Shown in pieces: positions 21,203-39,293 of a stretch of 39,413 nucleotides of DNA (position 1 is its first letter; the number at the start of each line of letters is the position of its first letter). The notes below the pieces were generated by a model. That model did no database searches, had not been told where the DNA came from, and saw only the letters and a program-made list of their open reading frames with translations. Position numbers and translations under genes: made by a program. The DNA is from an uncultured Eubacteriales bacterium (GTDB lineage Bacteria; Bacillota; Clostridia; Oscillospirales; Acutalibacteraceae). Location of the stretch: contig OMWP01000027.1 of assembly GCA_900314795.1 (NCBI GenBank), positions 1-39,413 on the forward strand. Reading direction: 5' to 3'.

Positions 21203-21231
21203 TTGATTTTCCACAAATTTTATTCTATAAT
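21203..21231 (+). promoter_or_regulatory. Sigma-A promoter at the head of the SipW-type cluster
   Basis: TTGATT (21203-21208) and a perfect TATAAT (21226-21231) are exactly 17 bases apart. The predicted leader is about 160 bases and includes the REP-like repeat at 21311-21362. Confidence 0.75.
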
Positions 21232-21310
21232 CAGTATGAGATTATTATGATTTAATGTAGGGAAAGTGGGTCTGTTGCCAGCAGTATCCCTGGCGAATAC
21301 CGGAAGAATT

Positions 21311-21362
21311 GTCATTGCGAGGAGGGCTGATGTTTATGTCAGCCTGACGTGGCAATCTCAAT
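21311..21362. repeat. REP-like repeat, copy 2, in a 5' leader
   Basis: GTCATTGCGAGG ... CGTGGCAATCTCAA surround a central hairpin (GGCTGA...TCAGCC). It lies inside the untranslated leader of the first gene of the cluster, only ~35 bases before the start codon, so it would be part of the mRNA. Confidence 0.7.
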
Positions 21363-21398
21363 CGATACACATTATTAATGTTTGATATGGTGAGTAGT

Positions 21399-22214
21399 AT
21401 GGATGAAAAGACTGTCTTAGAGCTCCAACAGGAACTGCAAAAACTGAAAAAAGCGCAGGTGCGTATCAAACGCAAGTTCACCTTTATGCTCAGCATCATC
21501 GCAATGTTGGTGCTGATCACGGCGACGCTTGCGTGGTTTACGCTGTCTAATTTTGCTTCTGTCAACGATATCACGCTCAAGATCTCCACAGCACCTCAGC
21601 TGTATCTGGATATTGAGAACCGCGGTACTGACGTCAGCCTGTGGAAAAAGGTACTCACCAATGACATGGTCAATACCGCTCTTAGAGCTGAGAACGCTCC
21701 CACCCTCGATCAGCAGTTGATGGATCCGGTCACAACATCCAACGGCATTAGCTTCCAGAGCCGTTCCGGCAATACCCGCAACGCGAATTCTACCACCTTT
21801 GTTGAATTCAAGGTCTGGTTTATCGCCACAGAAGAGATGTGGGTGCACCTCTCCGGCGACAAGGTTCAGGTTGAAAACAACGACGCTACCACCTCTGTTT
21901 CGACGACAGAGACCGGCGCCAAGGCAGATGTTGTCCGTGCGATCCGTGTTTCCTATGAAGACAGCGGATCCGCCGCGATCTGGGAGCCTAACAAGGGTGC
22001 CGCCGTCAACGGACAGACTACCTTTGACGTTTCTACTACATACTCCAACGACACGCGCATCTTCCACCTTGACAAGCTCACCCCCAAGCAGATCACCTTC
22101 CGCATCTGGGCAGAGGGTAACGACCCTGAGTGTGACGACGACGTTCAGGACGCCAACGTCACCATCCAGATGCTCTTTGCCGGCACGGATGATAACAACT
22201 CGCTGTTTGAATAA
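21399..22214 (+). CDS. SipW-cognate-like secreted protein A
   Basis: A 271-residue protein with a charged helical N-terminus (1-27), one membrane segment (about 28-47) ending in ATLAWF (42-47), then a beta-rich, Thr/Ser/Asn-rich exterior domain. The hydrophobic run ending in AWF is how SipW-cognate signal peptides look, as in the TasA/camelysin (CalY) class. Near the C-terminus is the motif IWAEGNDPECDDDVQD, shared in variant form with other proteins of this locus. GGTGAG lies upstream of the ATG at 21399; ATGs at 21378 and 21387 are alternatives. It is the first gene behind the promoter at 21203. Function is inferred as a surface or matrix protein; the N-terminus is unusually long and charged for a signal peptide. 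Confidence 0.72.
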   Translation: MDEKTVLELQQELQKLKKAQVRIKRKFTFMLSIIAMLVLITATLAWFTLSNFASVNDITLKISTAPQLYLDIENRGTDVSLWKKVLTNDMVNTALRAENAPTLDQQLMDPVTTSNGISFQSRSGNTRNANSTTFVEFKVWFIATEEMWVHLSGDKVQVENNDATTSVSTTETGAKADVVRAIRVSYEDSGSAAIWEPNKGAAVNGQTTFDVSTTYSNDTRIFHLDKLTPKQITFRIWAEGNDPECDDDVQDANVTIQMLFAGTDDNNSLFE

Positions 22215-22223
22215 CCTCTCTTC

Positions 22224-22247
22224 GGTTAACGGTTAAAACTGTTAACC
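22224..22247 (+). other. Intergenic hairpin between the first two cluster genes
   Basis: GGTTAAC (22224-22230) pairs with GTTAACC (22241-22247), extended inward with one mismatch. There is no U-tract, so it is more likely a processing or stability element or a weak attenuator than a full terminator. Confidence 0.45.
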
Positions 22248-22347
22248 CCAAAACTATATTTGGTTTAAACAGGCGCACAAACGTCTGATTAAATAGTAAT
22301 TCTGTCCTCGTGTTTGGGACAACAATAATTATTAAGGAGGAATTCTC

Positions 22348-23166
22348 ATGACAAACACTAAATTCAGAAGAAGAGCGTTGCTCTCTTCCGTTGCAATGCT
22401 CCTCGTAGCTCTTGTAGCTCTTGGTTCCGCGACATTCGCATGGTTCTCGACCACCAACACCGCATCCGCAAGCGCGATGAATGCGAAGACCAACAAGGCT
22501 TCCAACATCCTGCTCAATGAGTACTTAACCGATGAATCTGGTTTTGCCGGAGATTGGCAGCAGACCCTGACCCTCACCCAGAACACCGCTTCCGGTACCA
22601 CCAACGGCAACATTGCTATGGAGCCTGTTACCACCAAGGACTTCACTACTTGGAACAATGTTAAGGCTACTGTTTACAATCAGGGCTTCGCTACCGGCGC
22701 CTACACTGATGTAACCAGTAATATCAAGAAAAACGGTAAGTATGTGAAGTACACCTCTCTGTACATCAAGAACACCGGTGAGAATACCGCTGCTACCATC
22801 AGCGCAAATGCTACTCCTGCTGTTTCTACCAACACCCTCGGTGAAAACTATCTGCGTGTAGCACTGGTTCCCAGAGCTGCCGGTTCTAAGGACGTTACTG
22901 CTGCTGTTGCAGCCCCGATCGTATATGGCGATGGCAACGACCGTTCCAATGCGACGGCTGGTTGGAATTCTTCTGATGTTACTGATCAGGCGGATTCTAT
23001 CGTTACTACCGCAATGGGCGGAAATGCCTCTTTGGGCACTCTTACCAAAGATGCTATTTACGCTTTTGATGTATACGTTTACTACGAGGGTACCGACTTC
23101 CAGTGTAAAGATGACGTCGCAGGCGGCGACATCAATGTTACCTTCAACGTAGCTAAGACTGCATAA
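22348..23166 (+). CDS. Putative major SipW-type fibre/matrix subunit (protein B)
   Basis: A 272-residue protein with a basic N-terminus (TKFRRRA), a hydrophobic stretch 11-31 and SATFAWFST (27-35), a textbook SipW-cognate-like signal. The mature part is rich in Thr, Asn, Ala and Gly, with variable beta-strand-like sequence, and ends with YYEGTDFQCKDDVAGGD and then NVTFNVAKTA, a version of the shared C-terminal motif. A consensus AAGGAGGA ribosome binding site, frequent GCT/ACC/AAG codons, small size and the strong GC-rich hairpin downstream suggest high expression, as expected of a structural subunit like TasA. This is inference; no sequence identity to TasA is claimed. It is separated from the next gene by 680 bases of repeats, so it probably ends its own transcript. 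Confidence 0.75.
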   Translation: MTNTKFRRRALLSSVAMLLVALVALGSATFAWFSTTNTASASAMNAKTNKASNILLNEYLTDESGFAGDWQQTLTLTQNTASGTTNGNIAMEPVTTKDFTTWNNVKATVYNQGFATGAYTDVTSNIKKNGKYVKYTSLYIKNTGENTAATISANATPAVSTNTLGENYLRVALVPRAAGSKDVTAAVAAPIVYGDGNDRSNATAGWNSSDVTDQADSIVTTAMGGNASLGTLTKDAIYAFDVYVYYEGTDFQCKDDVAGGDINVTFNVAKTA

Positions 23167-23267
23167 TCAGAGTATTATTACTGATTAACTTATTTGAGTC
23201 TATTCTTTACCGACGTTTAAGTTTTAAACATCGTATAAGAGATTTCTCTGTTAAATTATCATAAACG

Positions 23268-23300
23268 GCGGCGCGGGTGGCAAACACACGCCCGCGCCGC
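23268..23300 (+). terminator. GC-rich hairpin after the putative major subunit gene
   Basis: GCGGCGCGGG (23268-23277) pairs perfectly with CCCGCGCCGC (23291-23300) across a 13-nt loop, about 100 bases after the stop. There is no U-tract, so it may protect the mRNA 3' end from exonucleases as well as, or instead of, terminating. Confidence 0.55.
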
Positions 23301-23460
23301 ATAGGACATTTCCCGCGAGGGATTTGTACTTGTTTTTGATAAGACACGGCTCTGTATGAGCGGTCGGTCGCCCTGCGGCGACGGCCGTCGGACGTTCGAC
23401 ATGGCTTGTTCGGAGTCGTTCACATTTGCCTCCTCCGGTCTGACAAGGAGGCGGGGTTCA

Positions 23461-23503
23461 GCCTCCCTTTCCTAAGGGAGGTGGCACGAAGTGCCGGAGG
23501 GTT
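23461..23503 (+). repeat. Double-hairpin repeat, plus copy
   Basis: CCTCCCTTT/AAGGGAGG followed by GGCAC/GTGCC and GGAGGGTTGA. It faces an inverted copy at 23516-23571, making a larger inverted structure in the gap after gene B. Confidence 0.7.
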
Positions 23504-23515
23504 GATGATAATTGA

Positions 23516-23571
23516 CAACCCCCAGTCGCCTTTGGCGACAGCCCCCTTGGGAAAGGGGGCCTGAATCCTCA
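23516..23571 (-). repeat. Double-hairpin repeat, inverted copy
   Basis: CAACCCCCAGTCGCC/GGCGAC and GCCCCCTT/AAGGGGGC in the reverse order to its neighbour at 23461-23503. Confidence 0.7.
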
Positions 23572-23591
23572 GTAGTCAGATCATCATCAAT

Positions 23592-23628
23592 TGTTATTGC
23601 GAGGCATTTATGCCGTGGCAATCTCAAC
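23592..23628. repeat. REP-like repeat, copy 3
   Basis: TGTTATTGCGAGG and CGTGGCAATCTCAA flank the small hairpin GGCATTTATGCC. It is the third copy of the family in this window. Confidence 0.7.
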
Positions 23629-23775: not shown

Positions 23776-23847
23776 AGAGTAGCTCTAATCTGTGTATACC
23801 TTTATGTATATAGAGATTAACGCTATTAATAGATATGGAGAATGAAT

Positions 23848-24810
23848 ATGAAAGAGAATGAAACCAAAACGCAGAACAATAACAACGAAACGCAAAGCAA
23901 GGGTAAGAGCGTTTTCAGAACGATCCTCAACACGATCATCAATATCCTGATCGTTTTAGTGCTGATCGTTTCCGTTGTGATCGCTACGCTTGCCTTGACT
24001 TCAAAATCGACCGGTATCTCCACGATGTTCGGTTATACCATCCAGCCGATCCAGTCCGACTCGATGAAAGGCGGGTCTCCCGATGGGTATCCGAGCGGGG
24101 ATTTCGGCAAGGGCGATTTGATGATCGCGAAAGCGACCGATTTCAATTCATCGGCTGAGTATGAAAACGGTGATATTGTTACTTTTGTCACTGGAGATGA
24201 GAATGGTAATAAGATGTTGATCGTCCATAGAATCATCAATACTATTACCTTGAAAGATGGAACCAAGCGTTACCAGACGCAGGGTGATAACAGAGAAACT
24301 TCTCCCGCTCCCGATCAGGAAGAAGAGTCACTTTATCTTCCCGCGATGGAGATCGGCTCTGTCTATTATTCACCCGGTTATGAAGGCAAGATCTTAAAGG
24401 GTTGGGGCTCGGTGCTCGATTTTATCCAGAGCCAAAAGGGCTTCTTCTTAGTCGTCCTCCTGCCGATGATCATCTTCTTCATGTACGCGGTTATCCGTGT
24501 TGTGATCAGCTCCATGAACTATAAAAAGGCAAAAGCCGACGAGGACAAAGAAGAGGCTGTCAAGGCGGCTGTCGCGGCTGCACTTGCCTCCAAGGATGAA
24601 GATACCGAACCGGTTAAAACAGACGGCGGTACCGCACCGGTAGAACCTGCTAACGCGGAAGCTGAGGCTAAGCCCCAGGATCAACCCGCCGAGCAGGATG
24701 TGAAAATGACGGCAGAGGAACTCGAGCAGTTCAAGAAATTCCAAGAGTTCCAGAAAATGCAGCAGGCTTCTGAACAAGCAGAGCAAAAGAACGCTAAAAC
24801 GGAAGAATAA
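23848..24810 (+). CDS. SipW-like signal peptidase I with long charged tail (SP-1)
   Basis: A 320-residue membrane protease of the ER/archaeal-type signal peptidase I class. Membrane segment ~25-50; catalytic serine S72 in QSDSM, histidine H127 in IVHRI (replacing the lysine of classical bacterial enzymes) and aspartate D147 in TQGDN, a Ser-His-Asp set. A second membrane segment (~198-222) is followed by a ~95-residue Ala/Glu/Lys-rich cytoplasmic tail with a Q/K/E helix at its end. It would cut the AWF-type signals encoded around it. GGAG is 7 bases before the ATG at 23848; 23842 is too close. An unusual insert (GGSPDGYPSG) sits just after the catalytic serine. Confidence 0.87.
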   Translation: MKENETKTQNNNNETQSKGKSVFRTILNTIINILIVLVLIVSVVIATLALTSKSTGISTMFGYTIQPIQSDSMKGGSPDGYPSGDFGKGDLMIAKATDFNSSAEYENGDIVTFVTGDENGNKMLIVHRIINTITLKDGTKRYQTQGDNRETSPAPDQEEESLYLPAMEIGSVYYSPGYEGKILKGWGSVLDFIQSQKGFFLVVLLPMIIFFMYAVIRVVISSMNYKKAKADEDKEEAVKAAVAAALASKDEDTEPVKTDGGTAPVEPANAEAEAKPQDQPAEQDVKMTAEELEQFKKFQEFQKMQQASEQAEQKNAKTEE

Positions 24811-24871: not shown

Positions 24872-25816
24872 TTGAGCAAGAAACCGAAAAACATCGATGA
24901 GCCTTTCTCTCCGGAACAGCTCGAACAATTAGAGTATAAAGGCGATAAGCAGGTACAGCTGCAACGCCAAAAAGAGGGTCTCTTTCAGCGTTATACAGCA
25001 AAGCGTGATTCGCAGGATATCGCCAAGCAGGTCAGATGGAAACGCCGCGCCGGTATCGCGTTGATTACCTTGGTTGCGGTTTTGTTCCTGATTTGGATCA
25101 TGACTTGGCTGTTGACAACGATCGGTGATTTGGTCATCTCTGTCGACAGCGGCGCCGCCAAGAAAGGTATCTCTATTTCTGAGAATGAGGATGGCTCAGG
25201 AGCCACGCATAAACTCAGCGCCAACATGGTAAAAGAAGTTACCAATATCACTTATGACTGGTTACCCGCAACATTGGATCTTGAGGCAAGCGGTTCTCAT
25301 AACGGAAGAAACTATCTCGCCTATACATTTTATCTGACAAACAACGGTTCTGAAACACTCAATTACCAGAGCATGCTCCAGAGTGTCAAGGCGGCAAAGG
25401 ATGCTGATGAGGCGTGTCGCGTGATGATCTATAAGAACGGTGAGCCCGAGGTGTTCGCGAAGGAAAACAGAGGCTTGACCTCCGCAGATGGTTCTCCCGA
25501 ACCGTTTGAAAAGATATTCAAGAAAGAAATCCCCGCAAATTACACACCGCCGACAGCGGAAGAGATCGAGGCGGCGGCAGAACAACCGCAAAATAAAGAG
25601 CTTGTCAACCACACCGATGAAGAAATCGTGATCCAGCCCTTTGTTGACTCCAAGACCGTATTCAATACCGAGGTCGATGGTCTGGAGCCCGGGCAGACCG
25701 ATAAATACACGATCGTCATGTGGATCGAGGGAGAGGATCCCGAGTGCCTTGACGTTATCCGCGACGGATATGTCAAGCTGATGTGGTTCTTCAACATCGC
25801 GGACGAAGAACTGTAA
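24872..25816 (+). CDS. Membrane-anchored camelysin/TasA-like protein C
   Basis: A 314-residue protein starting at a TTG (24872) with AAGGAG ten bases upstream. It has a ~57-residue charged cytoplasmic N-terminus, a membrane helix (~60-85) and a ~225-residue outer domain. The helix lacks the AWF ending seen in its neighbours (it has WIMTWLLTTIG), so it may stay uncleaved and anchor something. The outer domain contains LAYTFYLTNNGSETLNYQS, a Pro/Glu/Ala insert and, at the end, MWIEGEDPECLDVIRDGYV, which closely matches the C-terminal motif of protein A. It lies 61 bases after signal peptidase SP-1, probably in one transcript. Candidate membrane anchor or assembly platform for the fibre; this is inference. 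Confidence 0.66.
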   Translation: MSKKPKNIDEPFSPEQLEQLEYKGDKQVQLQRQKEGLFQRYTAKRDSQDIAKQVRWKRRAGIALITLVAVLFLIWIMTWLLTTIGDLVISVDSGAAKKGISISENEDGSGATHKLSANMVKEVTNITYDWLPATLDLEASGSHNGRNYLAYTFYLTNNGSETLNYQSMLQSVKAAKDADEACRVMIYKNGEPEVFAKENRGLTSADGSPEPFEKIFKKEIPANYTPPTAEEIEAAAEQPQNKELVNHTDEEIVIQPFVDSKTVFNTEVDGLEPGQTDKYTIVMWIEGEDPECLDVIRDGYVKLMWFFNIADEEL

Positions 25817-25820
25817 ATAT

Positions 25821-26042: not shown

Positions 26043-27578
26043 ATGGATACTATCTTTAAATTCTTATTTGAGTTTCTAAAGCAGTTCTTCGGCTCGATTT
26101 TTAAGGGCATTGTCGATATACTGCAGGCTTTCAACTTCAAGGCCTACTATGATATTATTCAGAATTTCACGGGACAGGGCGAGCTCGGTAAGGGCGTCGC
26201 TTGGGCGATCGCGATCGTCGCTATGCTCCTTCTTGCCGCTGTACTCGGTTTGATCATCTTCTTCATCGTGAAGGGTATCATGAAATTCACGAAGTTCAAG
26301 AAAAAGGCGAAGGACACCAACGATCTTGTCAATGAGGTCAACGCGTTGAATAAAGAAGTCATGCGCCTCAACCTCGAGAAGGATAAGATCCTCTCCATGA
26401 AGGTCTCTCAGATCGGTCTGAACCCGAACGAGATCTCCGAGCTGACCGGCGAAGAGCTGGAAGCCCTCAACAAGGAAGGCGAGGAAGAAGAGGTATCCAC
26501 CGGCCGCTTCAACAAGCTCATCACCATCGACGAAGAGTGGGCGGATTATCAGCCCGAGCCGTACGACTGGGATGTTACTCTCCCCGAGTTCGTCACCAAC
26601 TTCCGCAACTTTGCTTGCTCCAGAATGCATTATTGGTATGAGATCAAGCTGCTCCGTTGCTTTGTAGCAGGCTTCGCATCCGGTCGTTTGACGATCCTGC
26701 AAGGTATCTCCGGTACCGGTAAAACTTCACTGCCTTATGCGTTTGGTAAATATGTCTGCAACCCCGCCGTCATCGCGTCTGTCCAGCCTTCCTGGCGTGA
26801 CCGTACCGAGCTGTTCGGCTACTACAACGAATTTACCAAGAGATATAACGAGACAGAACTGCTCCGTGCGCTGTACGAAGCATCCTATAACGAAAACGTA
26901 TACGTCGTCATCCTCGATGAGATGAACATCGCCCGTGTCGAGTATTACTTCGCTGAGATGCTGTCCATCCTCGAAATGCCGGCACATGATGAGTGGATCG
27001 TCGAGATCGTTGCGGCTCCGTGGCCGGATGATCCGAAGCATCTGGATCACGGTAAGCTGACCATCCCCGATAACATCTGGTATGTCGGCACCGCGAACAA
27101 CGATGACTCCACCTTCGCTATCACCGATAAGGTTTATGACCGTGCGATGCCCATCGATATCAACACCAAGGGTAAGCCTTTCGATGCGCCCGACACACCG
27201 CCGTGTCATATCAACTATAAACATTTCACCAAGCTGCTGGAGGATGCGGTTGCCGCGAATCCCATTAGCGAGGAAAATTTGAAGAAGATCGAGATTCTCG
27301 ACGATTATGTCATCGAACACTTCCGTGTTGCTTTCGGTAACCGTGTTATGAAGCAGATCAACTCCTTCGTACCCGCGTTCGTCGGCTGCGGCGGAACAGA
27401 GATCGACGGTATCGACTATGCGCTGTGCAAGAAGGTATTCCGTAAGTTCGAGGCACTGAACATTTCTTACATCCGCGACGAGATCGACGGTCTTGTCCAG
27501 CAGCTCGATCAGCTCTTCGGACGTGAGAACATGAACGAATGTAAAGAGTATGTCCGCATGCTCCAGAAGATGACCTGA
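26043..27578 (+). CDS. Membrane-anchored McrB/MoxR-like AAA+ ATPase
   Basis: A 511-residue protein. Residues 1-45 form amphipathic helices, 52-78 a membrane helix, 88-150 a charged linker likely coiled. The AAA+ core runs from ~195: Walker A GISGTGKTSL (221-230, K227), McrB-like SWRDRTELFGYY (250-261), Walker B VVILDEMN followed by IARVEYYFAEML (288-306, D292/E293), sensor 1 GTANNDDST (349-357), arginine finger candidate R367 and sensor 2-like FGNR (431-434). The Walker B context DEMNIARVEYYF is characteristic of McrB-type ATPases, but the GTP-specific MNxxDRS element reads ANNDDST, so ATP is more likely than GTP. AAGGAG lies before the ATG. It precedes a DUF2357-like coiled-coil gene, the usual partner type of McrB. 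Confidence 0.85.
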   Translation: MDTIFKFLFEFLKQFFGSIFKGIVDILQAFNFKAYYDIIQNFTGQGELGKGVAWAIAIVAMLLLAAVLGLIIFFIVKGIMKFTKFKKKAKDTNDLVNEVNALNKEVMRLNLEKDKILSMKVSQIGLNPNEISELTGEELEALNKEGEEEEVSTGRFNKLITIDEEWADYQPEPYDWDVTLPEFVTNFRNFACSRMHYWYEIKLLRCFVAGFASGRLTILQGISGTGKTSLPYAFGKYVCNPAVIASVQPSWRDRTELFGYYNEFTKRYNETELLRALYEASYNENVYVVILDEMNIARVEYYFAEMLSILEMPAHDEWIVEIVAAPWPDDPKHLDHGKLTIPDNIWYVGTANNDDSTFAITDKVYDRAMPIDINTKGKPFDAPDTPPCHINYKHFTKLLEDAVAANPISEENLKKIEILDDYVIEHFRVAFGNRVMKQINSFVPAFVGCGGTEIDGIDYALCKKVFRKFEALNISYIRDEIDGLVQQLDQLFGRENMNECKEYVRMLQKMT

Positions 27579-27713: not shown

Positions 27714-30134
27714 ATGATTGATTATAGCAGATACTACAGAGTATATGCCGAAATGAAAGACACCCTTGACGGTGACTATGCGCGCGAGTATCTGACTTCT
27801 GCTTTGGCGGACGCCGATAAAGGCAATGATGAGCTCTCCGGTAACGCGTACAACCGTGTTATCGACATGGAATGGGTCGAGATGATCGAGGGCAAGCTGC
27901 CCTATATCGAGAAAGCGATCGACGAACAGCGAAAATTCATTGAAGAGTATAAAGAAGTCGACCGTATCGATAAGGTTAAACAGGTCGGCAAGGACGCTGT
28001 TCAACATCTGACGCAGCACGCGAATCTGATCATGGCGATTGAGGATGACGGCAGCGTTATCCCCGAAAGATTGTTGAACACGCATCGTGAGGATAGCTTT
28101 GCAACCTATGAGAATCGCTTTCTTCATACGCTGATTTTCAGGACGATCGCATTTGTCGAACAGCGCTTCCGTGCGCTGCAGGATGCACCGAACGATTCAT
28201 CCAGTAAGATGAATATGGAGCGTGAGATTCGTGTCGGACACGAGGTTTTCGGTTTTCAATTAGAGCACCATGCCGAAAAGCATGAGCGTGATAAGGTTGA
28301 CAGAGATGAAGACCTTTCCAGTCTGACTGACTATGAGCGTATTGAGCGTATTCGTATGAAGCTTGATGACTTTGCCGGAACAGAGTTGATCAAATCGCTC
28401 AAAGGCTGTATTGCGGTAAAATCGCCGATCAATAAGACCAACTGTATCAAGCAGGATCCTGCTTTCAAGCAGTGCTATGACCTGTGGGTCTTTATTGAGG
28501 GTTACCGTAAGACCGGCTATGTATTAGAGAAAAACGTCTTTGAAGGTCAGATGCCTGAGGACGTTCAGAAAGATATGTACGACGTGATGGCGTTCCAGCA
28601 TTTCGTCGCTACCATCAACACCAACTCCGCTCTCCGCGAGAAGCTCCATGCTGAGTATATCGCTGAGAATGAGCGCCGCGCCGCCGAGGCTAATAAGCCC
28701 GAAGAGGAAATGGCGCGTTATATCGAGGATAAGATCTATGAGGCGCGTCGTGAAGAAATGGCGTTACGACTCAAAGAGGTTCGTGAGCGTGAGGTCATTA
28801 TTTCTAAATTGACCGCCGAACTCGAACAAGCGAAAGAACAGATCCGTATCCGCGATATCAAGATCAAAGAACTCGAATCCGTTATTGCCGCTTTGAAGAA
28901 AGAGCTTGAGAATCTCCGCGAAGAGCTGCGCAAAGCGCAGGTTCGCATCATGGATCTCGAGAAAGAGGTCGAAGAGCTCAAGGCGCATATTGCAGAGCTC
29001 GAGGCAAAGATCGCCGAGCTCGAAGCTACCATCCGCGAGTTAGAGGCTCAGATCGCTGCTCATCTTGCGACGATTGCCGCTTTGGAGGGCACGATCGCAG
29101 AACTGCAGGCTCATATCGAGAAGCTGAATGCTGAGATCGCCGGACTCAAGGCGCAGATCGAAGAGCTCAACGGCGTCATCGCCGAGCAAAAGCAGACCAT
29201 CGCCGAGCGTGACGCGACGATCACTGAGCAACAGGGCGAGATCGGCAAGCTGAATACACAGGTTGGCACCCTGACCAACACGATCGGCAATCTGAGCGCT
29301 GAGAATTCCGAGCTCAAAACGACGATCGAGGACAATAATCGCACGATCGCCGAACAGGCTGACGATATTGCCGCTAAGGCAGCTTCTTTATCCGCCGCGA
29401 ATGACGCGAATGAAAAGCTGACCGGCAAGTATAACAATCTGAAAAGTGACTACGACGCGGCTGTTGAGAAGTATTCGAACTATCAGCGTGAGATGGATGA
29501 CCTGAACCGCGTGATCGATGAAGGAAATGGCGAGAAGAAAGAGCTCGAGCATCAGATTCGTGTTCACCTCAATACGATTTCTGCAAAGAACGCGATCATC
29601 GCTACATTGAACGATGAAAAGTCCGCGCTGAGTGAGCGCATCGGCGGCGTAGACGCTGTCGAACAGCAGGCGAAGCGTGATATTATGGCGGCGCGTGAAC
29701 AGGTTTCCGAGATCGAGACCAAGAATGTTGCGCTCAATAACTCTCTGCGTACACAGATCGCCGCGATGAAGTTCCGCGATGATCAGATTGCAGAATTGCA
29801 GGCGCAGCTCGAGACCGCTGAGCTGACCAAGCAGGCTGAGATCAAAGCGATCCGCGAGAAGTATGAGAAGCAGATCGCTGACATCCAATCACAGTACGAG
29901 GTCAAGATCGATACCCTCGAGAACGAAAAGGTCGCCGCGTGCACCTTCTCCGATGACCAGAAATACACCATCCGCCTCAACGCCGAGAAGAAAGCGATCC
30001 AGAAGGATTATGACGTCAAGCTCGCCGACGCTACCAAAAAGGCAAAGAAGTTTGTCAAAAAAGCGCGCGTGCTCGTTGACGATAAGCCTGAGGCGCTTCT
30101 CAATCTTCCCGAAGCAAAGAATTATTATAAGTAA
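27714..30134 (+). CDS. DUF2357-like protein with long coiled coil
   Basis: An 806-residue soluble protein. Residues 1-~315 resemble the DUF2357 region of McrC-partner-type proteins: IPERLLNTHREDSFATYENRF (115-135), then TNCIKQDPAFKQCYDLWVFIE (242-262). From 363 to 558 there are 28 consecutive heptads without a stutter, mostly Ile at position a and Leu at d (for example IAELEAK, IAELEAT, IRELEAQ), followed by less regular coil to ~760 and a Lys-rich end. At 0.15 nm per residue the regular part alone would be about 29 nm long. No PD-(D/E)xK nuclease motif is seen, so it is not an ordinary McrC. AAAGGAG is eight bases before the ATG; the GTG at 27705 overlaps that site and is rejected. It heads a close-packed run of secreted-protein genes. 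Confidence 0.78.
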   Translation: MIDYSRYYRVYAEMKDTLDGDYAREYLTSALADADKGNDELSGNAYNRVIDMEWVEMIEGKLPYIEKAIDEQRKFIEEYKEVDRIDKVKQVGKDAVQHLTQHANLIMAIEDDGSVIPERLLNTHREDSFATYENRFLHTLIFRTIAFVEQRFRALQDAPNDSSSKMNMEREIRVGHEVFGFQLEHHAEKHERDKVDRDEDLSSLTDYERIERIRMKLDDFAGTELIKSLKGCIAVKSPINKTNCIKQDPAFKQCYDLWVFIEGYRKTGYVLEKNVFEGQMPEDVQKDMYDVMAFQHFVATINTNSALREKLHAEYIAENERRAAEANKPEEEMARYIEDKIYEARREEMALRLKEVREREVIISKLTAELEQAKEQIRIRDIKIKELESVIAALKKELENLREELRKAQVRIMDLEKEVEELKAHIAELEAKIAELEATIRELEAQIAAHLATIAALEGTIAELQAHIEKLNAEIAGLKAQIEELNGVIAEQKQTIAERDATITEQQGEIGKLNTQVGTLTNTIGNLSAENSELKTTIEDNNRTIAEQADDIAAKAASLSAANDANEKLTGKYNNLKSDYDAAVEKYSNYQREMDDLNRVIDEGNGEKKELEHQIRVHLNTISAKNAIIATLNDEKSALSERIGGVDAVEQQAKRDIMAAREQVSEIETKNVALNNSLRTQIAAMKFRDDQIAELQAQLETAELTKQAEIKAIREKYEKQIADIQSQYEVKIDTLENEKVAACTFSDDQKYTIRLNAEKKAIQKDYDVKLADATKKAKKFVKKARVLVDDKPEALLNLPEAKNYYK

Positions 30135-31382: not shown

Positions 31383-33170
31383 ATGATGAAAGCGAAGACA
31401 ATTCTAAAAGCGCTGGGTACCATGGCAAGACAGCGCCATTTCTTCGGAAAAGGTCTTATCAAATCATATGTTTCACTGCTCCTTGTTTTGATACTCGGCG
31501 TTTCATCCACTATGGCATGGTTCTCTGAGCGTGAAGCGGCTCATCTCAGAGCTAATAATCTCGAGTTCCAGTCCGCCTCTTCACTGCGTATCAATAAAGA
31601 TAAATACAGCGCGAATAAAATCACCATCCCCGCGTTTACTCTCGATGAAGCGTCCAGCTTAGACGGCAGAAATATCTATTTCCCTGTCGGCGAGTCGTTC
31701 ACCTCTGATACGGCTGAGATGTTCTTCCGCGAGGGCAACAAAGGCGATGAGAATGTTCATTATGTCTACAAGGACTTTGAGCTCAAGGGTACCTCCGGTA
31801 ACACTCCCGTCTATATCAAGAGCTATAAGATCCAGGTCGGCGACGATATTTATGAGGATGAACTGAAGGTCGAAGACGACGCGCAAGGAAAACCGAATAA
31901 ACAGGTCAAACCTCCGGATCATTGTCCTGTCAGATTGGCGTTTATCGCCGATAGCGGCGTCAAGCCTGTTGTTATTGATCCCTCCGCACAGGTTGACAAA
32001 TATGTCGATAATTCCCCCGGCGTAGTTTCACTGGTCGATGATAACGGTAATCCTACGCTCGAACCGTCTTATCCTAACTATAACTGGAACTCTTTTTCCA
32101 CCTATTATTACGAGCACACTCCGCTGTTCATTATCCCCGGCGGACAGAAACTGAATGTTACTCTGGTCGTATGGCTTGAGGGTTCTTTAGAGGATCTTGA
32201 TCCCTATAAGGATAAACAGATCAAGGTCGATATCGATATCGAGAGTAACTTCGCCGCGATGGACACCATCAAGTTTGTCGACGCGTCAGTTGGTGATAAT
32301 GACTCCAGTGCTTCGGCTCGCTATTGGGTTAGCGATAAAGACGGGCAGGGTTATCCCATTATTCTTGCTTGCTCTTATGAAGACCCTTATTCAGAAGAAA
32401 ATCCCAAGCGTTGGAAGACTGTCATCATGAGACAGACCAAACAGGGTCAAAAGGGCGTCACCGGTGGCGAGTGGGAATGTGAGATTCCTAAGAAAGCTAC
32501 CACAAACATCTCTTTCTATCGTTTGACCAGCCAAAACGGATCGTCCCAGGCTACCATCTATAACGCTTGGTATACGCGCTCCGGCATTATGGGAATGATC
32601 AATAGCAGTATCAATAATTCTACATGGCTGACAAACGGTAATTTACAAGAAAGCAGAACATTCTTCGATGCTTCCACCAATACAAATGATAACGCATTAG
32701 TATATACCGCGATCCACGGTAACGGATATAGTACCACAAGCGATGAAAGTCAGCGCCTGTCTCCCTGCGTCGGTTACTGGAACTTTACCGCAGGCTCCGG
32801 CAGCAGCTCCGGCGGCGGACAGTCCTCCGGCGGTGGCGGCGGCAGTTCTGTAACGAATTGTAACTTGAAAGTGATTGCGAGAATTCCGGACGGCAAGAGT
32901 TGGGTTTCTTCTACCGATACGCTCGGATTTGAGACCGATGCCGGTAACAGCTACTACTTTACCGATAACTGGACAGATAGCGGTAAAGCAAATGAACTCA
33001 CGGCGTCTTTGCCTGTCGGTGAGAAGATCGTCCGCTTCTGTAAGAAGAACAGCTCCGGCACGAATTACTATCCGTTCAGTGGCGGCACTCAGACCTTTAC
33101 AGTGCCGAATTCAAACGATTGGACGGTAACGTACGAACTGACCAACAGTGATTATTGGGGTCATAATTAA
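31383..33170 (+). CDS. SipW-cognate-like multidomain surface protein E
   Basis: A 595-residue protein with a long basic N-terminus, a hydrophobic run ~29-43 and STMAWFSE (42-49). Residues ~50-290 form a camelysin/TasA-like domain with the motif VVWLEGSLEDLDPYKD. Residues ~295-470 (from KFVDASVGDNDSSASARYW to VYTAIHGNGYST) look like a starch-binding-module-26-type fold or relative. A Gly/Ser linker at ~473-491 leads to a ~100-residue C-terminal domain starting TNCNLKVIARIPDG, which I do not recognise. A perfect AAAGGAGGTGA ribosome binding site stands six bases upstream. Probably a cell-surface adhesin or a fibre-associated protein; carbohydrate binding is a guess. Confidence 0.72.
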   Translation: MMKAKTILKALGTMARQRHFFGKGLIKSYVSLLLVLILGVSSTMAWFSEREAAHLRANNLEFQSASSLRINKDKYSANKITIPAFTLDEASSLDGRNIYFPVGESFTSDTAEMFFREGNKGDENVHYVYKDFELKGTSGNTPVYIKSYKIQVGDDIYEDELKVEDDAQGKPNKQVKPPDHCPVRLAFIADSGVKPVVIDPSAQVDKYVDNSPGVVSLVDDNGNPTLEPSYPNYNWNSFSTYYYEHTPLFIIPGGQKLNVTLVVWLEGSLEDLDPYKDKQIKVDIDIESNFAAMDTIKFVDASVGDNDSSASARYWVSDKDGQGYPIILACSYEDPYSEENPKRWKTVIMRQTKQGQKGVTGGEWECEIPKKATTNISFYRLTSQNGSSQATIYNAWYTRSGIMGMINSSINNSTWLTNGNLQESRTFFDASTNTNDNALVYTAIHGNGYSTTSDESQRLSPCVGYWNFTAGSGSSSGGGQSSGGGGGSSVTNCNLKVIARIPDGKSWVSSTDTLGFETDAGNSYYFTDNWTDSGKANELTASLPVGEKIVRFCKKNSSGTNYYPFSGGTQTFTVPNSNDWTVTYELTNSDYWGHN

Positions 33171-33213: not shown

Positions 33214-33277
33214 GGCACGCGGTATATCATGGCCTAATAACCTTGACAAAAAATGATAGATTATGGAGGTGATACAA

Positions 33278-36103
33278 TTGAATAAGCTATATAAGAAGCT
33301 CAAAGCAAAGGTTTCTCAACCCGGCAAAAAGGGAATGAAGAATTCCGTGATTTCAATTGTGATCCTCCTTGAGGTCATTGCGCTTTTGATCGTGGGAACC
33401 TTTGCTTGGGTCGAGACGGTGTCATCCATCAAGATCACTAACGAAGCGAACAAGGTCGGTACTATTAAGGATGATACCAAATACACCGATATGATGATCG
33501 GTGATAAGACCGGTACGATCAATCTGCTCGATTATTTCGAGCCGTCCGGTGATATGCACTTAGCGCCCGCGTCCAGTGCCGACGGCAAGACCCTCTACTT
33601 CCCGAAAGCGAATATCGGATCGAATGTGATTTACAGAAAAGGTAACGTCAACGATAAGAACACCACTTATCTCAGCGCTTCCTTTAGGCTGAGAGCTGAT
33701 ACAAATGCTGATTTCTTCTTCTGGAAAGATACTGGGCACGATATTAGCGTAGATAATAATATTCGAGTATCAGTAACTGCTTATACGGAGGGAGAGAACC
33801 CCGAGGGAACTTATGATCCCAAGTCCGGTAAGCTGATCAGCAATACAAAGATCTACGCGAATAACGCCAGCACGACCGCGGTGGTCAATTCCACTTCCGG
33901 CGCGACCGGTGCTACCACTGTTGAAAAGTTCACCGATCATCAAAAGGGCAAGAGCTCTACCGCACGACTGTTTGCGGTCGGCGCGAATGAGACGAAATAT
34001 GTCACCATCAACGTATGGCTTCAGAAGCAGTCGGGTAATTCCGATCTGACTTCTAATATGTCAGTATCTCAGGCGATCAATAACCTCGGTATCACCTCCT
34101 CGCTGACGCCTCGTCATGTTACTCTGCTCCCGACTCCGACTTGGGATCAGAGTGGAGTGGATGAGACATTCTACGCTTGGTGTTGGGGCGCTACCAATGG
34201 TGACGCCAGCCGACTCTATAAGTTGGAACTGGATGATAACGAGCATTATGGCTTTGACTATAACGGTACTTATCAGAATACGCTGTTCATCCGTTCCGGT
34301 AACGCAAATCTGACTAAGGAATATCTTGAAGCTAATAATGGAGAGCACTGGAACGATAATACGATCTGGAACGTAACGGAGAATACTTCTATCCCGAACG
34401 ATCCCGTCGATCCGACCTTTATCATTGAAACGATCAACGGCAGCACTCTTAGCGGTGATGATAAATACGATCCTTCAAATAAGAAAAATATATCAGATTG
34501 GGATACCAATCCTAACGGACGTCCTAAGAAGAGCACCGGTAGTTGGCACGATCCGGCCACGGTTAAGGTAGCGCTCTGTACCGGTCAGGGTGGTGAGAAT
34601 CCTTGGGGTACACTTGAAGCTACCTCCTATGTTGGCTCGACAACATCTACGCATGTGATCGAGTCGACCAATCCTGATAGCCAGAAGCATAAGGACACCA
34701 TCCATGCTTGGCCCGGTAAGAAGCTCCAGCTGAAAGCTACCGCCAAGACAAATTATGCGTTTGTCGGTTGGTATTTAGATGCTGATGGAACTACTCCTGC
34801 GTCCGGTACCTATACCGATGCAACGTACACACCCAACGCCCCCTCTACCGCTTCCGAGATCACTTATTATGCGAAGTTCAAAGAGACGCGTACTTTCACG
34901 ATCAATCGTATGGTAGACGGCAACCTGAATTCTACTGTTGCAGCCGGAACGATCACAGTTAATGATAATTCGACAACGTCTACGGGTCGTTCTAAAACCG
35001 TAACAGTCGATAAGGGCGATAGCGTGACCTTCTCCGCGGCTGCGGAACGCGGCTATACTCTTGAAGGTATTTACACAGCTTCTTCTTATGGCACGTTGAA
35101 ATACGGACCGAATGATGGTAACGGTAATCCTGTTCCATCTGATTACCCGGAAGAGGCATCAATTAAGCTTAACAATAACACGACCTATTACGCTCGCTTT
35201 ACGACAAATAAGCATAAGGTTAATTTGAGGACGATCGGTTCTACCGGCAGTACGGTTCAGTACGGAAGTGAAACAGCTTCAACTTCTGTGACTAAGACCG
35301 GCGTGAAGTACAATACCTCGGTAACGATCAAAGCAAATCCTGCTGCGGGTTATAAGTTCGTCGGTTGGTATACCAACTCAAGCGGTACAGGTACTGCGGC
35401 AAGTACAAGCGCTTCTTATACCTTTACGCTCGGTGACGCTGATGTTACTTATTACGCAAAATTTGATATTGCCGATTATTATCTGACCGGTTATATCAAT
35501 GGAGCGGATGAGAGCGGAACAACGCATCACTTCTCACACAACGGAAACGGAGTATTTACTTATACTTATAAGTTTACCGGCGACAGTGATCAGTGGGTTA
35601 CCGTCTATGACGGAACAAACGCTTATCATCCCGGTACTCACGGTGCTGGTTCTGGTACAGCTGCTAACACCAGTTTGACGGATACAACGCCGGCAGGTCC
35701 TAACGGTAACAAGTGGAATATACCTGCTCCGAAGGGCACCACAGTTACGATTACTTGGGATTCAGGCACTAAGAAATTATCGTGGACGCTTAACAGCCGT
35801 GAGCTGTTCTTAAAGCCGAATTCCAACTGGACGCAAAGCAGTGCGAGATTTGCCGCTTATGTCTATGGCAACGGCGAGGCTTGGTACGACATGGAATCCG
35901 CCGGCGACGGTTATTACAAGGTTACTGTTCCCGCTTCTTATCCGAATATCATATTCTGCAGAATGAATGGCGGTACAACCGCGAATAACTGGGGTAATAG
36001 GTGGAATCAGACCGGTGATTTGACGATTCCGGCTGATAAGAACTGCTTCACTGTTCCCGATGGAGCTTGGGACGGTTCGACCACGACATGGTCATTGTAT
36101 TAA
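33278..36103 (+). CDS. Large adhesin-like SipW-cognate-like protein F
   Basis: A 941-residue protein from a TTG start: GGAGGTGAT lies eight bases before TTG 33278, while the ATG at 33263 sits on top of that site. The signal is LLIVGTFAWVETV (36-48), the AWF variant AWV. Next are a TasA/camelysin-like region with TEGENPEGTYDP (to ~275) and a CBM26-like stretch (~280-390, from LLPTPTWDQSG). Three InlB-type B repeats (Listeria-Bacteroides repeat, Flg_new) follow at ~480-535, 580-646 and 680-729, each with a G(W/I)Y core and a YYA(K/R)F end. Then come a YYLTGYINGAD module (~733-840) and a final ELFLKPNSNW...NRWNQTGDLTIP module (~841-941), types I recall from secreted Clostridia proteins, including amylases. 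Probably the tip or adhesive component. Confidence 0.78.
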   Translation: MNKLYKKLKAKVSQPGKKGMKNSVISIVILLEVIALLIVGTFAWVETVSSIKITNEANKVGTIKDDTKYTDMMIGDKTGTINLLDYFEPSGDMHLAPASSADGKTLYFPKANIGSNVIYRKGNVNDKNTTYLSASFRLRADTNADFFFWKDTGHDISVDNNIRVSVTAYTEGENPEGTYDPKSGKLISNTKIYANNASTTAVVNSTSGATGATTVEKFTDHQKGKSSTARLFAVGANETKYVTINVWLQKQSGNSDLTSNMSVSQAINNLGITSSLTPRHVTLLPTPTWDQSGVDETFYAWCWGATNGDASRLYKLELDDNEHYGFDYNGTYQNTLFIRSGNANLTKEYLEANNGEHWNDNTIWNVTENTSIPNDPVDPTFIIETINGSTLSGDDKYDPSNKKNISDWDTNPNGRPKKSTGSWHDPATVKVALCTGQGGENPWGTLEATSYVGSTTSTHVIESTNPDSQKHKDTIHAWPGKKLQLKATAKTNYAFVGWYLDADGTTPASGTYTDATYTPNAPSTASEITYYAKFKETRTFTINRMVDGNLNSTVAAGTITVNDNSTTSTGRSKTVTVDKGDSVTFSAAAERGYTLEGIYTASSYGTLKYGPNDGNGNPVPSDYPEEASIKLNNNTTYYARFTTNKHKVNLRTIGSTGSTVQYGSETASTSVTKTGVKYNTSVTIKANPAAGYKFVGWYTNSSGTGTAASTSASYTFTLGDADVTYYAKFDIADYYLTGYINGADESGTTHHFSHNGNGVFTYTYKFTGDSDQWVTVYDGTNAYHPGTHGAGSGTAANTSLTDTTPAGPNGNKWNIPAPKGTTVTITWDSGTKKLSWTLNSRELFLKPNSNWTQSSARFAAYVYGNGEAWYDMESAGDGYYKVTVPASYPNIIFCRMNGGTTANNWGNRWNQTGDLTIPADKNCFTVPDGAWDGSTTTWSLY

Positions 36104-36126: not shown

Positions 36127-37422
36127 ATGAAAAAGTCAAAAGTCGTCTTAGCGATCGTGTTGGCGGTCGTACTGCTGATAGCCGTTTGGAACGTCCCGAC
36201 GTTTTCATGGTTCTCACGTCCTCATAGCCAAAATGGCGCACAGGCGGTCTTAGGTGGCAGCAACGGCGCCTATTCCATCAACGCCTATAACGGCTACAAT
36301 GTTTCCATAGCGACCTATCCCTCAAATGATGGATTTACTTACTCAACAACTGCTACAACTAACTATAGCGGCTCCAATATCCCCAACAACAACCGCAAGT
36401 ATTTTAAAACGACGCTCACCAATAACTCCGGTGGGGAACAGAATGTTTCGCTCTACGCGCGTACGCTCTCGATCCCGACCGCAAACAACGGCTCTCTCGC
36501 TATCGGTGTTAATGGTCCCACCCGTAGCTATCACGACTATTCCACTTTAGCGGCAGATACTGCTGACGCTACACGAGATGCTATGCGTATTTATTTCCAG
36601 AAGCCTAAATCTGCCCCCGACGGTTGGGCGGGTACAGAGTTTTATATCTGTTGGAATGAAGATACAAATACAAGTATCGCAAGTCTTGATTCGACCGGAT
36701 CTAACGGTACCTATTACAAGATGACCTATTGCGGTGAAAAGGATAACTACTATAATTACTATGTCGATATCCCCAAGACCGCGACCCACGCGTTCTTTGC
36801 TTGTGAAAACTGGGCTGAAGGAAAGCAACAATCAGATTTAACTGCTGATAACTGGAAGAAGCGTACTCAGACCATAAAGAATCTGTACGGCGCCGGTCAG
36901 TCTCAATTGCAGAGTAAGATTTATAAGCTCACGTCGACTATTGACTATGGAAACACAAAAGTTGAGACACCGCCTGATAGTGTTGACGGCGCTTGTATCA
37001 ATCATTTTTATTCATCGATTTTTGTGAAGACCGGTAGTACATATAATGCCGGTTTGGATCAAACAACGAAAATCCCTACCAGAGAAGGCTACACTTCCAA
37101 TTATATCGGTACGTTGGAGTACTATTCCGGTGATACAAACGTATTTACTGTTGATAAGACTACGGGCGTGATCACTCCTGTTGGCGCGGGTGAAGCGACG
37201 CTGTATACCAAAGCTGTCGGCTCTTCTTATTCGGATTCACAGCAGGTAGAAACGACCGTCAAGGTCACCGCCGCAGATAACTATGTTTTCAATGATGTTC
37301 CGATTGTCAAGAATGTCAAGATGGCGGCGAATGAGACGGTTGATGTCAACTGGTATGTGATCAATAACTCTCCCACCACCGCGCTCACCTATACGATCGA
37401 TGAAGTCTATGTCAGTAACTGA
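36127..37422 (+). CDS. SipW-cognate-like surface protein G with BIG2-like domain
   Basis: A 431-residue protein. A hydrophobic N-terminus (7-24) ends in VPTFSWFSRP (23-32), another AWF variant. The first ~150 residues are Tyr/Ser/Asn-rich beta sequence. Residues ~155-255 (MRIYFQKPKSAPDGWAG to AFFACENWAEG) look like a starch-binding-like module. Residues ~345-410 carry an Ig-like group 2 (BIG2) pattern, YYSGDTNVFTVDKTTGVITP then GAGEATLYTKA. It ends with a ~45-residue stretch (NVKMAANETVDVNWYVIN). It does not show the EGxDPEC motif. AAGGAGGTGA precedes the ATG, 23 bases after protein F. A terminator follows, closing the operon that began at the coiled-coil gene. Confidence 0.72.
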   Translation: MKKSKVVLAIVLAVVLLIAVWNVPTFSWFSRPHSQNGAQAVLGGSNGAYSINAYNGYNVSIATYPSNDGFTYSTTATTNYSGSNIPNNNRKYFKTTLTNNSGGEQNVSLYARTLSIPTANNGSLAIGVNGPTRSYHDYSTLAADTADATRDAMRIYFQKPKSAPDGWAGTEFYICWNEDTNTSIASLDSTGSNGTYYKMTYCGEKDNYYNYYVDIPKTATHAFFACENWAEGKQQSDLTADNWKKRTQTIKNLYGAGQSQLQSKIYKLTSTIDYGNTKVETPPDSVDGACINHFYSSIFVKTGSTYNAGLDQTTKIPTREGYTSNYIGTLEYYSGDTNVFTVDKTTGVITPVGAGEATLYTKAVGSSYSDSQQVETTVKVTAADNYVFNDVPIVKNVKMAANETVDVNWYVINNSPTTALTYTIDEVYVSN

Positions 37423-37472
37423 TTGTCATTTGTGAGATCGTTACATGAACTTCAACATCATAAAAATATACA

Positions 37473-37501
37473 AAAAGGGTTGTTTTTACAGCCCTTTTTT
37501 A
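37473..37501 (+). terminator. Rho-independent terminator after protein G
   Basis: AAAAGGGTTG pairs with CAGCCCTTTT (one G-U pair) and ends in a run of T, about 50 bases after the stop codon. Confidence 0.85.
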
Positions 37502-37555
37502 TTATACTGATTGATAGAGCGTATATCGTGTGATGTAGAATGAACGAGGTTTTCT

Positions 37556-38566
37556 ATGAACAAGCTGAAACAAAAAATCAAAGATAGATTAGGTGAGAAA
37601 AAGACCGCCATGCTGAAAAAGGCGTTAAACGTCACCCGTATCATCAAGAATATCGTGTGTTGGACGTTGATCGCGATTTTGACATTAGCTGTCATCATCT
37701 TTGTATTCACCAAGATCAACGGAGAGACCCCAAAGGTATTTGGCTATACGCTGCATCGTATTGTATCGGGCAGTATGAAGCCTGAACTCGAGGTCGGCGA
37801 CGTCATCGTCAGTAAGGAGATAAAGGAAAAATCCGAGATCGCTATCGGTGATATCGTTACCTTCCAAGGTGACGCTCGGTTTGAGAATAATAAAGTCACG
37901 CATCGTGTTTTAGTCGCTCCTTATGATAATGGCAGGGGAGCAACGGTGATTGTGACAAAGGGTGACGCTAATATCGATGACGACGGTGAGATCAACGTAA
38001 GCGATGTGGAGTCAAAGTATCATTCTAAAATTGATTTTTTGAAGAAGCTTTATAATTTCTTTTTTACGCCTTGGGGCTTACTGGTTTTCATCTTTGTATT
38101 GTTGTTGGTATTCTTTGATGAGATCATGAATATCGTCAAATTATCGACTCAAAGCGCGAAAGAAAACAACGACGAGACGATTAAAGAGATCGTTGAACGC
38201 GTCAAGCGTGAACAATTGGAGGAGGCAAGAAAGAAGCAGGCTGAGGAGAAAGAAGCTCTTATCGAGGAACAGAGCGCTTCGACCGTCTCAGAAGAACATG
38301 CATCGAACGATGAAGAAGTAAATGCTTCTGCAATCGATGAAGCCCATCCTGAGAAAAAAGAGATCGATACAACACAGCAGAAAAAGGAAAAAGCGAAAAG
38401 ACCTGCTTCAAAGACGCGATCGAAGCAGAAGAAAGATTCACATTCAAAAGTTCATTCCGAGAAAAACAGTGCAGGGAATGGACAGCGTAAAACAAATCAG
38501 AAAAAGACCCCGCCATCTTCAAAGAATACATCCAAAAAGAAATCAAAGAAGCGTAAGAAACACTGA
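37556..38566 (+). CDS. SipW-like signal peptidase I with basic C-terminal tail (SP-2)
   Basis: A 336-residue ER-type signal peptidase. Membrane segment ~31-52; GYTLHRIVSGSMKP with S73; THRV with H116; TKGDAN with D137, the SipW-like Ser-His-Asp set. A second membrane helix spans ~172-188. The following ~140-residue cytoplasmic tail is very charged: first Glu/Lys/Ala (coiled), then extremely Lys/Ser/Arg-rich to the end (about -KKKSKKRKKH). Such a basic tail is not a usual part of SipW and could bind nucleic acid, phospholipid heads or an acidic partner such as the tail of SP-1. GAGG precedes the ATG. It follows a terminator, so it needs its own promoter, which I could not find with confidence. 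Confidence 0.87.
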   Translation: MNKLKQKIKDRLGEKKTAMLKKALNVTRIIKNIVCWTLIAILTLAVIIFVFTKINGETPKVFGYTLHRIVSGSMKPELEVGDVIVSKEIKEKSEIAIGDIVTFQGDARFENNKVTHRVLVAPYDNGRGATVIVTKGDANIDDDGEINVSDVESKYHSKIDFLKKLYNFFFTPWGLLVFIFVLLLVFFDEIMNIVKLSTQSAKENNDETIKEIVERVKREQLEEARKKQAEEKEALIEEQSASTVSEEHASNDEEVNASAIDEAHPEKKEIDTTQQKKEKAKRPASKTRSKQKKDSHSKVHSEKNSAGNGQRKTNQKKTPPSSKNTSKKKSKKRKKH

Positions 38567-38613
38567 TTGGTTTATGTTGCTGATTTTATCGTAAATAAGC
38601 AGGAGGGAACTCA

Positions 38614-39258
38614 GTGATTAGAAAAATAATCCACGTTATATCCGTAGTGTTTTTTATCGTTCTTATCTTTGTGGTGGTGTATTCTCTTGCGTCGCGCATT
38701 ATGGGAGAAACTCCGTCGATTTTCGGCTACTATTTCTTCCGTGTTACATCAGATTCTATGGAGCCTACTCTGAAGGTCGGCGATGTATTGTTGGTTCATT
38801 CTGCTGATGCGGAAGATATCCACAAAGATGATATCATTACCTTTAAATCTAAAGAAGGTTCGATGTATGGTCGTTATGTGACCCACCGCGTCGTTTCGGA
38901 TCCTGTGGTCAAAAAAGATCGTTATTATTATCAAACACAGGGAGACGCGCCGGGTGCGCCTCTGGATAAGGCGATTACCTACGATCAGATAGAGGGCAAG
39001 CTGGTGCGCAAACTTGCTATTATCGGAAAAGTATACAGCTTTTTCTGTACGCCGACGGGTATCATTGTTTTGATCGGAATCATCGTATTGTTGTTTGCTT
39101 CTGAGATGATCCCATTATTTTTTACATCAAAAAAATTGGACGAAACAGACGAATTGCTCTTTGAGTCAATAGGAAAGCAGACATCTGAGAATGCTTCTAT
39201 TGAGAAGGGCGATTCGGAAAAGAAAGCACATGATAATGATCCCGACAAGTCAAAATAG
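38614..39258 (+). CDS. SipW-like signal peptidase I, short form (SP-3)
   Basis: A 214-residue ER-type signal peptidase starting at a GTG with AGGAGGG upstream. Membrane segment ~5-27; FFRVTSDSMEP with S48; THRV with H91; TQGDAPGAPLD with D111; second membrane helix ~148-170; a ~44-residue acidic cytoplasmic tail. It is closest in size to Bacillus SipW (about 190 residues). It lies 47 bases after SP-2 and is probably in one transcript with it, ended by the hairpin at 39270. Confidence 0.88.
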   Translation: MIRKIIHVISVVFFIVLIFVVVYSLASRIMGETPSIFGYYFFRVTSDSMEPTLKVGDVLLVHSADAEDIHKDDIITFKSKEGSMYGRYVTHRVVSDPVVKKDRYYYQTQGDAPGAPLDKAITYDQIEGKLVRKLAIIGKVYSFFCTPTGIIVLIGIIVLLFASEMIPLFFTSKKLDETDELLFESIGKQTSENASIEKGDSEKKAHDNDPDKSK

Positions 39259-39269
39259 TCTATCTGAAA

Positions 39270-39293
39270 AAGCCACTCTTTACGGAGTGGCTT
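39270..39293 (+). terminator. Hairpin after SP-3, abutting a repeat element
   Basis: A perfect 9-bp stem AAGCCACTC/GAGTGGCTT lies 11 bases after the stop. As at 14409 there is no U-tract; the stem runs straight into the repeat element. Confidence 0.65.

Follow-up and report, generated by a model that had tools for sequence, protein, structure and literature searches.

The window analysed here, a stretch of 39,413 nucleotides from an uncultured Eubacteriales bacterium of the Acutalibacteraceae, a gut relative of Ruminococcus bromii (assembly GCA_900314795.1, contig OMWP01000027.1, positions 1 to 39,413), contains a locus of twelve genes in which signal peptidases of the SipW type stand beside a predicted McrB-like membrane GTPase, its McrC-like partner (a DUF2357 protein) and a set of exported proteins. 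That the peptidase, the GTPase and the partner form a conserved system is well supported. A SipW peptidase and a DUF2357 partner accompany GTPases of this type in 90 of the 91 examined loci with enough flanking sequence, and a SipW match is found in none of 16 control loci with related GTPases. We give an even chance to the reading that the locus serves to export and assemble surface fibres of the TasA type, and that its restriction-related GTPase takes part from the cytoplasmic side.

The twelve-gene locus and its GTPase pair

The locus consists of 12 consecutive open rightward open reading frames (ORFs), from 21378 to 39258 in the ORF listing of the window. They encode seven exported or anchored proteins, three signal peptidases of the SipW/endoplasmic reticulum (ER) type, one membrane AAA+ protein and one long coiled-coil protein of about 806 residues. 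Six of the proteins begin with a hydrophobic signal whose last residues are TLAWF, TFAWF, AYSWF, TMAWF, TFAWV or TFSWF; the seventh surface protein, tmS, has a single transmembrane (TM) helix and no such AWF-type motif. The genes are as follows:

21378..22214, + strand: sub1, exported, signal ending in TLAWF, W-x-EG motif close to the C-terminus (sequence and TM scan)
22348..23166, + strand: sub2, exported, signal ending in TFAWF, beta-sandwich model, candidate TasA-like fibre subunit
23842..24810, + strand: SipA, signal peptidase of the SipW/ER type, long tail predicted to be cytoplasmic (NCBIfam SipW; S74/H129; tail comparison)
24872..25816, + strand: tmS, membrane-anchored, N-terminal part, then one TM helix and a beta-sandwich ectodomain in the model, candidate fibre base
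26043..27578, + strand: predicted membrane McrB-like GTPase (AAA+), motif GTANNDDST, TM helix at residues 48-83 (family and profile matches)
27714..30134 (ORF opens at GTG 27705), + strand: McrC-like partner, DUF2357 followed by a long coiled coil (Pfam, alignment)
30196..31338, + strand: sub3, exported, signal ending in AYSWF (sequence and TM scan)
31383..33170, + strand: sub4, exported, signal ending in TMAWF (sequence and TM scan)
33263..36103, + strand: sub5, large, exported, signal ending in TFAWV, InlB-type B-repeats (Flg_new_2, E 5.2e-13)
36127..37422, + strand: sub6, exported, signal ending in TFSWF (sequence and TM scan)
37556..38566, + strand: SipB, signal peptidase of the SipW/ER type, tail rich in lysine (sigpep_I_arch, 81.9 bits, cut-off 51.85)
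38614..39258, + strand: SipC, SipW/ER-type signal peptidase, final gene (sigpep_I_arch, 92.6 bits, cut-off 51.85)

A first-pass annotation of this DNA had described the same twelve-gene composition and AWF/SWF/AWV signals at 21203-39293, and both the composition and, closely, the extent are borne out. The AAA+/coiled-coil pair that it singled out is present as well, while the kinship of its members with McrB and with McrC (DUF2357) had been overlooked.

Judged by its profile matches, the AAA+ protein is a McrB-like GTPase. It matches NCBIfam McrB PRK11331 at E 1.4e-5, under the family cut-off, and a profile of the GTPase finds the solved E. coli McrB structure 6hz4 at E 3.9e-7. A match to PADLOC PDC-M26A, a candidate defence family, reaches E 1.1e-33 over two stretches, the better of which spans residues 195-315 only; three class B or C GTPases, described below, also match this family. 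The signature GT[AI]NNDDS is kept in all 114 distinct loci, and the two class C sequences shown have NRDES instead. Hydrophobicity places a single TM helix at residues 48-83, and the charged stretch beyond it (residues 105-131) is invariant bar one position in 14 sequences of the genus. Pfam searches of 14 GTPases gave weak FtsL matches in seven (best E 0.037), and neither DivIC nor FtsB appears among the matches listed (25 of 40 families). Among genus representatives, identity to the window protein is 67-95% for the GTPase and 21-74% for sub2.

At its N-terminus the partner carries DUF2357, the domain with which McrC starts (Pfam, 29.0 bits against a cut-off of 23.3); all 17 aligned relatives match it, 14 of them class A, and alignment with relatives favours the start at ATG 27714 over GTG 27705. 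A nuclease domain was not found in the partner among the Pfam matches listed (25 of 58 families, down to E 0.0009), although a diverged or inactivated nuclease fold could escape a sequence search. A rescan of its C-terminal 176 residues gave nothing convincing, and a DUF2357 profile search of the PDB did not retrieve McrC. Counted from the DUF2357 start, the partner has at least 600 residues in 71 of 90 loci and fewer than 420 in five, four of which encode DUF2357 and little else; the shortest distant partners, of 362-394 residues, are essentially DUF2357 alone. The long coiled coil is therefore not the core of the association between GTPase and partner. In L052, L054, L057, L060 and L066 the C-terminus of the partner carries an additional conserved, globular-looking stretch of about 120 residues, to which no Pfam name is given in L052 among the 25 families listed.

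Linkage to SipW and distribution

The loci compared are not a random sample: from one search they include the best 80 of at least 564 relatives, and from the order-level matches those that were fetched with flanks. Counting identical GTPase domains once reduced the 143 class A loci, those with GTPases of the window type, to 114 distinct ones. Of these, 90 are flanked by 3 kb or more on each side, and the 24 with less on a side were dropped. Counts were made on six-frame segments; long antisense ORFs had hidden GTPase genes, for example in L138, L207, L215, L217 and L219.

A SipW peptidase and a DUF2357 partner are encoded on the same strand as the GTPase in 90 of 90 such loci, with a peptidase at most 400 nucleotides upstream of the GTPase in 69. 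An AWF-type signal occurs in all but one (89/90; the exception is L215), and a sub2- or tmS-type protein in 85. Fetched after this count and searched with the same profiles, L226 (genome G064) carries a full-length lone GTPase with neither SipW nor DUF2357 and is the only such case. The control GTPases belong to classes B, C and D. Ten of their 16 loci pass the 3-kb filter; of the other six, three are cut on one side by contig or stretch ends, L198 has 2.7 kb, L197 starts at a contig end, and L196 gave no GTPase match at the threshold used. One control of class D, L193, has a single AWF-type signal, on the opposite strand. These counts uphold the earlier assignment of the AAA+/coiled-coil pair to a SipW-type locus. 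Had the homologues turned up chiefly in defence islands with no SipW genes close by, this would have spoken against it; the outcome is the opposite.

Within the genus, a GTPase match was obtained in 94 of the 150 genomes sampled and in 57 of 75 good genomes. SipW matches are present in 92 of the 94 genomes with the GTPase versus 31 of the 56 without it (Fisher p 6e-11, uncorrected for relatedness); the pair is thus nearly always accompanied by SipW, and SipW often occurs without the pair. The two GTPase-positive genomes lacking SipW are G064, with the lone GTPase, and G149, whose decayed copy of the locus (L225) retains a 61-residue GTPase remnant, a still open partner gene and a piece of sub3. 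All 39 genus loci with long flanks combine the GTPase, the partner, a SipW peptidase and AWF-type signals, and a sub1-type homologue is labelled in each. Relatives extend to other families of the order and to metagenome-assembled genomes labelled Bacilli and Erysipelotrichaceae, and the cultured Ruminococcus bromii ATCC 27255 and 5AMG carry the locus. The distribution at the order level is patchy, with a match of any kind, related GTPase classes included, in 43 of 312 good genomes.

In a tree of 44 GTPase domain rows, which include 25 class A loci, the SipW-linked class A lies on one side of a branch (81/85) and class B is its sister (A+B, 90/90). The four class C rows are split between two positions, both outside A+B, and class D lies far away. 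Class B GTPases (L180-L185) have one to three predicted TM helices and a DUF2357 partner in five of six loci, with a SipW match in none of the six; several of these loci have two GTPases, and large anchored proteins stand beside them, with a transglutaminase core in both loci tested. Because both sister groups sit beside surface proteins, the gene context argues for a surface role of the A+B branch. The class B locus L180 contains a 1121-residue frame (3791-7156) that joins, in an unusual fusion, a glycosyl hydrolase family 3 C-terminal domain and Fn3-like domains with a GTPase-like match. The McrB-like GTPases of L190 and L191 follow 7-10 predicted TM helices, and their DUF2357-type partners end in CxxC zinc-ribbon-like motifs.

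The last gene of the locus is sipC, with a hairpin-like sequence beyond it. Further on, translations read by eye correspond to RadC, UvrB, ParE and ParC, and of the 10 proteins scanned upstream of the locus (MatE, radical SAM, DUF2344, GDPD, AI-2E and others) those with a family match are ordinary transporters and enzymes, while the rest gave none. Over the window plus 20 kb beyond it, W-type signals were found in none of the 32 ORFs outside the locus that have at least 100 residues and no family match. Since such signals are absent from these ORFs and the neighbours on both sides are ordinary, the locus is taken to end at sipC, and its surroundings do not have the look of a defence island. 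Upstream, at 20296-20777, there are repeats of 107 and 100 nucleotides in two copies each, spaced by 227-228 nucleotides, and the last copy overlaps into the 3' end of a tRNA-Ser gene. A mobile island inserted at this tRNA gene was considered and rejected: tRNA-Ser(gga) lies within the fetched stretch in 10 of 39 genus loci, and the upstream genes vary between subclades, a pattern that suggests a common local position in part of the genus and nothing beyond.

Candidate fibre subunits, peptidase tails and a proposed mechanism

The predicted structures of two surface proteins hint at TasA. The sub2 model is a beta-sandwich whose best solved match in Foldseek is the TasA fibre, with middling scores, and the tmS model also aligns with the TasA fibre; at the sequence level, a sub2 profile gave no match in the PDB. 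Carbohydrate-binding tips, suspected by eye in sub5 and sub6, were not confirmed, as no such Pfam family was found and PDB sequence searches gave nothing convincing. In L140, L145 and L215, frames of about 2500 residues adjoin the core genes and may be additional surface subunits.

SipW/ER-type signal peptidases are defined by a Ser-His catalytic pair instead of Ser-Lys. SipA matches NCBIfam SipW at E 2.2e-17, under the curated cut-off; S74 and H129 are invariant in 15 of 15 aligned peptidases, and the best solved matches of the peptidases are SEC11A/C (E 2.3e-15). Peptidases adjacent to the GTPase have longer tails past the last TM helix, with a median of 63 residues (n=82) versus 40.5 in the others (n=44). 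One of two short tail motifs occurs in 70 of 82 GTPase-adjacent peptidases; the remaining peptidases show one in 3 of 49 cases, and shuffled tails in 0.4%. The motifs were picked after the tails had been viewed, and the contrast is descriptive. Together with the GTPase in the membrane and the N-terminus of tmS, the SipA tail offers candidate contacts on the predicted cytoplasmic side.

From these elements, we infer a cytoplasmic action of the pair in assembly or export; the first-pass annotation had conjectured a part in assembly, positioning or quality control. The GTPase would assemble into a ring beneath the membrane, with its GTP hydrolysis stimulated by the DUF2357 protein, by analogy with the action of McrC on McrB. 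Through the cytoplasmic tail of SipA and the tmS N-terminus, the pair may be coupled to the adjacent peptidase and to the candidate fibre base. GTP hydrolysis would then gate or drive the passing of freshly exported subunits on to cleavage and into the lengthening fibre. Outside the cell, the fibre would polymerise from a tmS base by donor-strand exchange, the mode reported for TasA fibres in PMC9674648; in the same account, an accessory subunit starts the Bacillus fibre. Further or tip subunits could be provided by sub3 to sub6.

A broader proposal is advanced more tentatively, at somewhat less than even chances. The locus would be a machine of a new kind for making surface fibres: a restriction-related GTPase and its McrC-like activator would have been recruited to the membrane, where they dock on the tail of a SipW peptidase dedicated to them and power or gate the building of donor-strand fibres of the TasA type. 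Such systems would be spread over many Bacillota of the gut, Ruminococcus bromii among them, and would belong to a larger clade of membrane McrB-like GTPases that serve the surface and not nucleic-acid defence.

Known relatives and rival explanations

The closest described relative is a group named CoCoPALM. In the portion of Bell et al. 2024 (eLife, PMC11090510) that deals with it, this name is given to McrB-like GTPases with an NxD motif, in FtsB-like fusions of TM and coiled-coil parts, that adjoin signal peptidases; a link to pilus assembly is proposed in a single paragraph and its study deferred. The window locus shares with this description a McrB-like GTPase with an N-terminal TM part and an NxD followed by D (NNDD also has D at +3, so the letters alone fit NxD-then-D and NxxD alike), a DUF2357 McrC homologue usually with a coiled coil, and adjacent signal peptidase genes (90/91 here). 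With regard to the FtsB-like fusion, the window GTPase shows one TM helix followed by a conserved charged stretch, and the FtsL matches lend weak support to FtsB homology. We conclude that the window pair belongs to the named but uncharacterised CoCoPALM kind, and that the locus is a larger variant of the SipW-TasA type with a GTPase module. The first-pass annotation had taken the organisation to be undescribed, a claim that does not stand given the naming of CoCoPALM, without analysis, in that paragraph. The terms SipW and biofilm are absent from the main text of PMC11090510, and its CoCoPALM section does not discuss substrates, the peptidase tail or a minimal partner; loci of the window type may be listed in its supplementary table. 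Beyond that paragraph, no description of this gene combination was found among the open-licence papers listed, and neither was a paper linking R. bromii with SipW; judged by titles, CoCoPALM is treated only in the eLife paper and its preprint.

The locus also resembles Bacillus tapA-sipW-tasA, and sipW-tasA/calY of B. cereus, which have a SipW-type peptidase that cuts AWF-type signals and a beta-sandwich fibre protein; in the window, sub2 is the candidate for the latter. To our knowledge, the Bacillus operon has one peptidase, few substrates and no GTPase or DUF2357 gene, whereas the window locus combines the GTPase pair with three peptidases and with seven proteins that are exported or anchored. 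With McrBC Type IV restriction it shares adjacent genes for an AAA+ GTPase and a DUF2357 partner. In contrast to McrBC, a PD-(D/E)XK nuclease was not found in the window partner by sequence search, and the GTPase has a TM helix at its N-terminus in place of a DNA-reading domain. Nor does the locus resemble the CoCoNuTs, which have a nuclease in McrC or an adjacent nuclease or HEPN gene: neither appears in the family matches listed for the 12 window proteins (Pfam for all, NCBIfam for 10). Class B membrane GTPases, the sister group, share TM helices, the DUF2357 partner and anchored neighbours, and differ in having no SipW match.

Several other explanations fit parts of these data. The coiled-coil/GTPase pair could serve as a scaffold in the membrane, bringing peptidase and fibre base to particular cell sites with no action on the subunits. 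We regard this as unlikely: the long partner of most carriers and the weak FtsL matches in half of the GTPases are in its favour, but the GTPase signature is preserved in every distinct locus, and the five loci with short partners indicate that the long coiled coil is dispensable. Slightly more doubtful is a quality-control function, in which the pair would extract or clear stalled uncleaved preproteins and peptidase complexes from the membrane. A membrane AAA+ gene does adjoin a peptidase gene whose product has a predicted cytoplasmic tail; on the other hand, no intracellular protease was recognised among the 12 proteins, and we know of no McrB-type ring that acts as an unfoldase.

A role in defence is given lower credence again; here, a McrBC-related immune system would guard the envelope or enlist the surface layer against phage. 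Its attraction lies in the kinship with McrB and PDC-M26A, and in the treatment of this clade together with Type IV restriction in the relevant part of PMC11090510. According to the same source, however, a CoCoNuT whose McrC lacks an active nuclease is always accompanied by one encoded close by, and none is among the matches listed here. The near-constant SipW linkage and the ordinary neighbours in the window also weigh against defence, and on these two grounds a defence island is rejected as the main account. An accidental neighbourhood of unrelated genes deserves practically no weight. The lone GTPase of L226 could be cited for it, but linkage holds in 90 of 91 loci, across several families of the order and genomes labelled Bacilli and Erysipelotrichaceae; of the explanations considered, only this one is excluded, by synteny.

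If the fibre-assembly reading is correct, CoCoPALM systems would gain a concrete set of substrates and a testable function, and a module that uses nucleoside triphosphates would be added to the SipW-TasA type of fibre. An engine of the McrBC type would then have been reused to build the cell surface, and the presence of the locus in cultured Ruminococcus bromii makes this testable in a known gut species.

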